39,084 nt of DNA from Gammaproteobacteria bacterium (GTDB taxonomy: Bacteria; Pseudomonadota; Gammaproteobacteria; Steroidobacterales; GCA-2729495): assembly GCA_024276095.1 (NCBI GenBank), contig JAJRXW010000123.1, positions 1-39,084 of the forward strand, written 5' to 3'. The notes under the pieces were generated by a model. That model was not told where the DNA came from and did not search any database. It saw nothing but the letters and a program-made list of their open reading frames with translations. Every line of letters starts with the position of its first letter. The first letter of the stretch is position 1. Position numbers and translations under genes: made by a program. Below are positions 21,871 to 26,838 of this stretch, one piece after another.

Positions 21871-22317
21871 ATGAACAGATTAAGTCGCGCTTCCCGTTCC
21901 AGACATGTCCGAGGCTTCACGCTGATCGAGATCATGGTGGTGGTGGTCATCCTCGGTATCCTGGCAGCACTGATCGCGCCGAATGTGATCAACCGTATCG
22001 ACGATGCCCAGGTGACCAAGGTACGTGCGGACATTCGTGCAATAGAGAGCGCGCTGAAACTCTACCGGCTCGATAACTTCCGCTATCCCAGTACCGATGA
22101 AGGCCTGGAAGCACTGGTCACCCGCCCGCAGAATTCCGATGCCAAGTGGCCTGAAGGCGGTTACCTGGACCGTATTCCTGTGGATGCCTGGGATCGCCCG
22201 TATGTCTATCTGTACCCGGGCAACCAGGGTACTTTCGACCTCTATTCCCTGGGACGCGACGGACAGCTGGGCGGTGAGGGACTGGATGCGGAAATCGGTA
22301 ACTGGGATCTGGACTAG
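21871..22317 (+). CDS. gspG: Type II secretion major pseudopilin GspG
   Basis: The 148-residue pseudopilin precursor has a short basic leader ending in Gly15, then F-T-L-I-E-I-M-V-V-V with Glu20 (position 5 of the mature protein) and a hydrophobic helix. Prepilin peptidase is expected to cut after Gly15 and methylate Phe16. The C-terminal half has Y-P-S-T-D-E-G-L-E-A-L, D-A-W-D-R-P-Y and L-Y-S-L-G-R-D-G-Q-L-G-G, the calcium-site region of GspG. It is the main subunit of the periplasmic pseudopilus that pushes folded substrates through the outer-membrane secretin. It is first of the gsp genes here and is separated from gspH by a 209-nt gap containing a large inverted repeat. Confidence 0.97.
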   Translation: MNRLSRASRSRHVRGFTLIEIMVVVVILGILAALIAPNVINRIDDAQVTKVRADIRAIESALKLYRLDNFRYPSTDEGLEALVTRPQNSDAKWPEGGYLDRIPVDAWDRPYVYLYPGNQGTFDLYSLGRDGQLGGEGLDAEIGNWDLD

Positions 22318-22320
22318 TCC

Positions 22321-22488
22321 TCTGAGGTGAGCACCGTAATGGGTACCGGGGCCGGGGGTGGCGTCCCCTTCCGAGACTGTAGCCGGCTGGCTAGAACCCG
22401 TAACATCCCTCCGTTGCCCGATTGCCCGCGTGTCTCGGAAGGGGACGCCACCCCCGGCCCCGGTACCCATTACGGTGCTCACCTCAGA
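22321..22488. repeat. Perfect 57-bp inverted repeat with 54-bp spacer between gspG and gspH
   Basis: Positions 22321-22377 and 22432-22488 are exact reverse complements over all 57 bases, compared base by base; pairing fails at the next base on both sides. The arms are very GC-rich (runs such as GGGGCCGGGGG) and contain GGTACC. The 54-bp spacer holds a smaller hairpin TAGCC-GGCT-GGCTA (22380-22393). The element starts 3 nt after the gspG stop and ends 38 nt before gspH. Just outside the left arm lies the palindrome GGACTAGTCC (22311-22320), which includes the gspG stop. No target-site duplication or transposase is visible. It could be a REP/MITE-like insertion or a functional RNA hairpin acting as partial terminator or 3' stabiliser for gspG mRNA. 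Confidence 0.97.
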
Positions 22489-22526: not shown

Positions 22527-23057
22527 GTGACACATCGTCAGCTCAATCGCGGTTTCACGTTGCTGGAACTTCTGGTCGTGGTCTTCATTGTCGGCATTCT
22601 GGCCACGCTGATCACCCTGTCCGTGGGCGTTGTCAACGATGACCGGGTATTGCGCACCGAGGCCGAGCGGCTCGAAGCACTGGTCAGACTGGCCTCGGAA
22701 GAAGCAACGCTGGGTGCGCGCGAACTGGGACTGAATTTCGAACCGCACGCCTACATGTTCATGACCCTCGACCCGCTCCGGAACCTGTGGGTCACAGCGG
22801 ATCTTGGAGACGAACTCAGGCGCCGCGAACTGGATGAATCCATTGTGCTGGAGCTTGAAATTGACGGCCTGCAGATCGTTCTCAAGGAGTTCGTACAAAC
22901 CGATAAAATCGATGCCGGAAAACCGCAGATATTCATTTTCTCGAGCGGCGACATCAGCCCGTTTTTTCTGCGCCTGCGGCGTGAGGCGGACGATGCGAAC
23001 TACACGCTGACCGCAGCGCCCGACGGTACGCTGGAACTGGCGGCACATGAAAGCTAG
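22527..23057 (+). CDS. gspH: Type II secretion minor pseudopilin GspH
   Basis: The start chosen is GTG at 22527, giving 176 residues with a short leader (T-H-R-Q-L-N-R-G) before F-T-L-L-E-L-L-V-V-V. Predicted cleavage is after Gly9, and Glu14 is mature position 5. The frame extends upstream into the inverted repeat, but that part has no pseudopilin character. AGGA lies only 3 nt before the GTG, an unusually short spacing. The globular part (E-E-A-T-L-G-A-R-E-L-G, F-E-P-H-A-Y) fits GspH, a minor subunit in the pseudopilus. The last 11 nt overlap gspI. Confidence 0.92.
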   Translation: MTHRQLNRGFTLLELLVVVFIVGILATLITLSVGVVNDDRVLRTEAERLEALVRLASEEATLGARELGLNFEPHAYMFMTLDPLRNLWVTADLGDELRRRELDESIVLELEIDGLQIVLKEFVQTDKIDAGKPQIFIFSSGDISPFFLRLRREADDANYTLTAAPDGTLELAAHES

Positions 23058-26342: not shown

Positions 26343-26358
26343 TCATGAAACAGTACCG

Positions 26359-26838
26359 ATTAACAACTGGTTCCAACAACTCGCCCCCCGGGAACGACTG
26401 CTGGTATCGGCAGCGGCTGCTCTAGCCGTAGTTGCCATCATCATCGTGGCAATCATACGACCGATTGTGACCGGTAAAACACTGGCCGAGCAGCGTATCG
26501 ACGACAAGCTGCAGTTGCTGAGCGAACTGGAAACGGCCGGGGCGCGATTTGGGCCGGTACCCGGTGTTCCGGCACCCGCCGGCGCGGACTCGAACCAGTC
26601 ACTGGTGGTGCTGGTGGACCGCACCACGCGCCGCTATGGCCTGGGTGCTTTTCTGAAAAGAAACCAGCCCGACGGGAATTCCAGCATTCGGCTGCGGTTT
26701 GAAAATGCGCCTTTCGATGCGATGGTGAGCTGGTTATCCGAACTGCAGACGAATTTTGCCCTGACCACGGTATCGGCCAGTATCGACAGCGCCCAGGAAC
26801 CCGGGCGGGTCAACTGTAACCTGGTGCTGGCCCGCTGA
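26359..26838 (+). CDS. gspM: Type II secretion protein GspM, start codon anomalous
   Basis: The conserved start of GspM is clear in one frame: N-N-W-F-Q-Q-L-A-P-R-E-R, then the single membrane helix (V-S-A-A-A-A-L-A-V-V-A-I-I-I-V). That frame has no ATG, GTG or TTG between its upstream stop (26305) and GTG 26446, which lies inside the helix. ATT at 26359 is the candidate placed just before the conserved residues and gives 159 residues, the normal length. Alternatively translation starts at ATG 26339 (ATGA overlap with gspL) and a single missing base or -1 shift near 26362 joins M-I-M-K-Q-Y-R-L to N-N-W-F. GspM binds GspL in the inner membrane. The stop overlaps the gspN ATG by one base (TGATG). 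Confidence 0.82.
   Translation: MNNWFQQLAPRERLLVSAAAALAVVAIIIVAIIRPIVTGKTLAEQRIDDKLQLLSELETAGARFGPVPGVPAPAGADSNQSLVVLVDRTTRRYGLGAFLKRNQPDGNSSIRLRFENAPFDAMVSWLSELQTNFALTTVSASIDSAQEPGRVNCNLVLAR

Follow-up and report, generated by a model that had tools for sequence, protein, structure and literature searches.

REP sequences carry an unpaired tag of the GTAG or CGTC type at one foot of a 20–40 bp hairpin, and REP dimers lie within palindromes in A. variabilis and H. neapolitanus (PMC3733652). Perfect inverted repeats of up to 284 bp form coding palindromes in the mitochondria of Nematomorpha (PMC6649704). Intrastrand template switching creates and maintains stems and enriches G-C over C-G pairs (PMC8794818). 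The palindrome described here lies in a T2SS operon within a 39,084-nt window (the whole stretch of DNA that was analysed) from a gammaproteobacterial draft assembly of 2.87 Mb in 322 contigs, which was searched for further copies. On balance, we favour the reading that it is a hairpin repeat that moves and that template switching during replication keeps its two arms identical and makes them longer, in a lineage mostly without SbcCD.

Structure of the gspG–gspH palindrome

The inverted repeat is exact. Its 57-bp arms (22321–22377 and 22432–22488) are 100% complementary around a 54-nt loop, as a preliminary description of this DNA had claimed, and each arm has an outer and an inner part (Table 1). 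The very stable RNA hairpin claimed in that description is also recovered by folding: the palindrome has a predicted energy of −149.6 kcal/mol compared with −70.0 ± 4.5 kcal/mol for shuffled sequences (z = −17.8). The inner-arm motif has two matches in the window and none in shuffles. The letters TTTATCG directly follow the stem. A scan for intrinsic terminators (a stem-loop and then a T run), which permits loops of 3–8 nt only, found no such pattern at the element, and no promoter was found there.

The gap between gspG and gspH is 209 nt long, in agreement with the preliminary description, which had also stated that the other junctions of the operon overlap or are about 16 nt long. This holds for H–I, I–J, J–K and K–L, which overlap, and depends for L–M on where gspM starts: the gap is 16 nt with an ATT start (26359) and 103 nt with the first GTG (26446). 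Positions 26343–26446 of the window contain no ATG, GTG or TTG before 26446; a start there would truncate the N-terminus, and the ATT start would bring back the N-terminal region.

Table 1. Features at the gspG–gspH junction (window coordinates) and loci of a second hairpin repeat (coordinates within each locus)
Feature	Position	Strand	Remarks
gspG	21871–22317	+	Element begins 3 nt past its stop codon
Outer left arm, 28 bp	22321–22348		Locus-private; mirror is 22461–22488
Inner left arm, 29 bp	22349–22377		G-rich family-level consensus; end is TTCCGAGAC
Core (loop), 54 nt	22378–22431	+	Subtype A (TGTAGCCGGCTGGC...GCCCGCGT); dispersed part
Inner right arm, 29 bp	22432–22460		Exact reverse complement of 22349–22377
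Outer right arm	22461–22488		Locus-private; exact reverse complement of 22321–22348
gspH	22527–23057	+	In-frame GTG start, 38 nt past element
Second hairpin repeat (ATAAAGCGGACCGCAGGGAGCCA loop)	L286 1708–1848; L312 17126–17212; L314 10855–10941; L288 11352–11533; L291		

A dispersed repeat with two subtypes

The source genome contains about 36 dispersed copies of the element, which match in the loop and in about 29 bp of inner stem and do not match in the arms beyond. A covariance model of the window's core (subtype A) gave eight strong matches that represent seven loci, because one palindrome is split between the ends of contigs C87 and C7; eight further weak matches turned out to belong to a second subtype, B. 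A model of subtype B gave 33 matches, or about 29 loci once halves at contig ends are joined. Subtype A cores score 22.6–24 bits under the subtype B model, which is weak, over the full model length and are among the best matches in the genome after B itself. Because of these scores, the shared ends (RGACTGT...GYGTGTCY) and the similar consensus of the inner arms, subtype A, including the window copy, is probably a diverged relative of B. Searching the genome with the arm sequence, which the preliminary description had proposed as a check on mobility, would mislead: the outer arm is unique to its locus, and arm-sequence searches will miss families of such repeats with conserved loops and private arms.

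Arms of the source-genome copies are 28–126 bp long each and mostly have 0–1 mismatch. The arm consensus fades about 29 nt from the core, and pairing runs up to 97 bp further in locus-unique sequence. Nine private arms were used to search for a donor, and none has a second copy anywhere in the assembly. Pairwise divergence among subtype B copies is 3.3% in the core, 24% at arm positions 1–11 and 45% at positions 12–29, so that the arms differ between copies 7–14 times as much as the core. Within a copy, arm mismatches average 0.00 (positions 1–11) and 0.05 (positions 12–29) compared with 2.6 and 8.2 expected from independent drift; in the related genomes G055 and G071 the corresponding values are 1.1 observed and 4.4 expected. 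The arms thus diverge between copies yet match within each copy, and changes are therefore mirrored.

Arm composition is also distinctive, with G-rich 5′ arms and C-rich 3′ arms on whichever strand the copy lies and base fractions of 0.155 for A and 0.126 for T. The ratio of CAGG to CCTG is 48:2 in outer arms, compared with 48:47 in the sequence that follows other genes and 1894:2180 in coding sequence of the same genome. CAGG recurs at 13-nt spacing in the private arms of several loci (e.g., L296, 6327–6412). Nested 29-bp insertions were considered as a source of long arms and rejected, as arm lengths are not multiples of 29.

Genomic position and insertion

None of 20 relatives carries an element at the gspG–gspH junction. 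The distance from the gspG stop codon to the GspH prepilin motif is 19–87 nt in these relatives (55 nt in the same-genus genome G001) compared with 233 nt here. Judged from this comparison of sequences, the element in the gap is a lineage-specific insertion. Five other copies are likewise unmatched in G001. The genes on either side keep their order there, with gaps between matches of about 16 to 240 bp; exact insertion points cannot be located against G001 as the intergenic DNA is too diverged.

Most copies sit close to stop codons. Neighbouring genes were predicted for 25 copies; they are convergent around 11 of these and tandem around 10. A flanking stop codon is present for 21 copies and lies no more than 20 bp from the end of 17 of them, although these distances are approximate because genes were called with a simple codon score. 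One copy, seemingly within a gene, in fact precedes a hydantoinase-domain gene for which the predicted start is too early.

Occurrence and anatomy in other genomes

Subtype B is, to judge from its sequence matches, a widespread gammaproteobacterial repeat. Its model detects the repeat in 21 of 99 genomes (the source genome and relatives), and a pattern scan of public genomes includes Xanthomonas, Stenotrophomonas, Marinobacter, Halomonas, Parahaliea, Alcanivorax, Microbulbifer and others among the matches listed. For subtype A, a DNA search of relatives with its core matched the source genome only, and its pattern has no matches in public genome and viral contigs. A plasmid search with a Xanthomonas copy gave no match. 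The window copy and eight loci do not reach the Rfam gathering threshold, the core letters are absent from the open-access papers searched, and key words yield no description in that literature. The repeat family is apparently undescribed.

At about 110 bp, the canonical unit has a core of about 52 nt between a G-rich arm of 29 bp and its mirror image. It is highly regular in G055 and G071, two genomes of the same order, which have 29-bp arms from GGGGA, a 52-nt loop and a total length of 110 bp. Arms in other genomes are mostly about 22–43 bp long, and canonical copies there have arms of about 29 bp with 0–4 mismatches. Subtype B is predicted to fold as a three-way junction that comprises an outer stem, a variable-stem hairpin with an ANGGA(C/T) loop and a second hairpin with a similar loop. 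Across 97 copies, 97% of cells are paired, double changes occur in 25 of 27 pairs, and G-U pairing is very rare.

Several side observations concern individual loci. ANGGA is the CsrA/RsmA recognition motif and occurs in both loops of 91 of 97 subtype B copies (L037–L116, L242–L281), a count that is partly biased by the search pattern. Inverted pairs about 160–280 bp apart, which resemble REP dimers, are frequent (L044, L053, L057, L061, L065, L326). Copies lie near the rpoA–rplQ ribosomal operon in Stenotrophomonas and Parahaliea (L037, L047, L057, L093, L111). Core B copies with shared arms are packed in a larger, MITE-like repeat in genome G006 (L030–L036), which measures about 280 bp by eye and has the ends TGGTGTCAGACACCA. 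The source genome and G001 also contain a second hairpin repeat with a conserved 23-nt loop and variable, near-perfect stems of 32–59 bp (Table 1).

Competing explanations

The preliminary description had suggested a mobile insertion of REP or MITE type. Its mobile part is supported by about 36 copies and empty sites in relatives. It appears rather unlikely that the element is a REP/RAYT or MITE-type repeat that a Y1 transposase, or a different one, moves in trans and whose arms are terminal repeats of the usual kind. Copies are dispersed, extragenic and near stop codons as REPs are (PMC3733652), at gene 3′ ends in convergent or tandem arrangement; some genomes have inverted pairs, the G006 copies lie within a MITE-like unit, and the insertion is missing at the orthologous site. 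However, the copies have no consistent tag on a canonical unit of 110 bp, and terminal repeats, unlike these arms, would be expected to recur at other loci. We do not file the family as REP/RAYT because nine copy-rich relatives (G048, G055, G064, G071, G075, G081, G086, G095 and G098) have no Y1 transposase (PF01797) and because no transposase or other gene was found that is shared by the neighbourhoods of the copies. As a separate observation, the sole Y1 match in the source genome (G000:C253:56–382) contains a TAG stop. Each arm could instead be a one-time inverted duplication of the local flank through snap-back replication at the core, which would suit locus-specific arms and palindromes that often end at stop codons; this is improbable given an outer-arm CAGG:CCTG skew unlike that of ordinary downstream or coding DNA and given one site at which a single private arm (58 nt) is longer than the gap in the sister species (41 nt between matches).

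Subtype B may be a selected RNA structure that binds CsrA at dispersed sites or acts as a sponge for it, and the window copy would be a decayed version. This is unlikely: ANGGA is present in both loops of most subtype B copies and the stems covary, but ANGGA does not occur in the window copy and there are almost no G-U pairs. In addition, the search pattern that brought up many of the copies prescribes TGGAC in the second loop, so that only the first loop is unbiased in those copies. The preliminary description had further proposed that the hairpin terminates transcripts behind gspG or leads to their processing there, and so fixes the ratio of major to minor pseudopilins. We regard this as quite unlikely despite the great stability of the hairpin and its location exactly between the two genes, 3 nt past the gspG stop. 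As a purpose, it is unsupported because no relative has the element at this junction and because the same element also occurs behind unrelated genes, among them those for thiolase and EF-P; nor was a promoter found, or a T-run terminator pattern in the scan with loops of 3–8 nt. An incidental effect may still arise, since a transcribed hairpin of about −150 kcal/mol may lower gspH expression or uncouple it. An assembly or amplification artefact is highly improbable. The assembly is a draft, and several of its contigs end inside such palindromes, but related cores are conserved in many species and laboratories, and gene order that is continuous across five other palindromes relative to the sister species argues against an artefact.

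A proposed self-mirroring hairpin

The favoured reading, a mobile hairpin repeat maintained by template switching, would begin with a copy of the dispersed subtype A repeat added just after gspG in the source lineage. During replication, the nascent hairpin would serve as its own template (quasipalindrome template switching), a change in one arm would be copied to the other, and the arms would stay perfect while loci diverge. Template switching would occasionally lengthen the arms after insertion. Such growth seems to be specific to the source genome because canonical copies elsewhere keep arms of about 29 bp. The element would then be mainly selfish or neutral. In a stronger form of this reading, the core is what moves and is conserved, template switching at every locus keeps rewriting the arms as perfect mirrors and extending them, and palindromes of 150–300 bp would thereby build up in gaps behind stop codons where SbcCD is missing; this form is plausible although somewhat short of probable.

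SbcCD cleaves long palindromes. The SbcD model has no match in the source genome and exceeded its cut-off in one of the 40 genomes searched, with the E. coli control detected. Long palindromes should be able to persist in a lineage that is mostly without detectable SbcD, and SbcCD loss in most of the lineage would explain how those of 150–300 bp remain. Relatives without SbcD have short arms, so its loss is permissive and not sufficient.

Template switching fits the perfect stems and the G-C over C-G asymmetry of the arms. The T-A over A-T excess that it also predicts is missing (A 0.155, T 0.126), which argues against it, and the CAGG richness and 13-nt spacing in outer arms are unexplained by mirror copying alone. 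The case for template switching is drawn from comparisons of copies within assembled genomes. The roughly 36 copies are natural replicates within one genome, with stems that are 24–45% diverged between loci and still paired within each locus. They provide a direct handle on how long perfect hairpins arise and stay paired, in an apparently uncatalogued family that extends to Xanthomonas, Stenotrophomonas, Marinobacter, Halomonas and others.

Relation to known systems

The family resembles REP and REPIN elements in that short extragenic hairpins are dispersed close to stop codons, for the most part where the neighbouring genes are convergent or tandem (PMC3733652). The letters ‘attcacg’ before the right arm of H. 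neapolitanus REP dimers can be compared with TTCACGG in the present element (PMC3733652). Unlike REP and REPIN elements, the element is about 110 bp long, folds with a predicted three-way junction, has a conserved loop and variable stem with no consistent tag, is abundant in genomes without Y1 transposase and has private arms of up to 126 bp. As in MITEs, copies are non-coding and dispersed, have inverted terminal repeats and are inserted relative to the sister species; unlike in MITEs, copies have only the inner 29 bp in common and not the outer arms, and no target duplication is apparent by eye in the flanks of the source-genome copies. Subtype B shares with CsrA/RsmA-binding hairpins its paired hairpins with ANGGA loops, which are candidate sites, but these are set in a long DNA palindrome and the motif is missing in subtype A, including the window copy. 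Template-switch hairpins and quasipalindrome correction (PMC8794818, PMC8604942) provide parallels in perfect stems, compensatory changes and G-C over C-G asymmetry, whereas the stems here reach 126 bp, belong to a dispersed bacterial repeat and have no T-A asymmetry, and the shared mechanism is our inference. Nematomorpha mitochondria likewise have many long perfect inverted repeats per genome (PMC6649704), although theirs lie in coding genes and the element here has a conserved loop and belongs to a dispersed family. What stands out is the addition of mirrored, private arms to an otherwise known type, the dispersed palindromic repeat.
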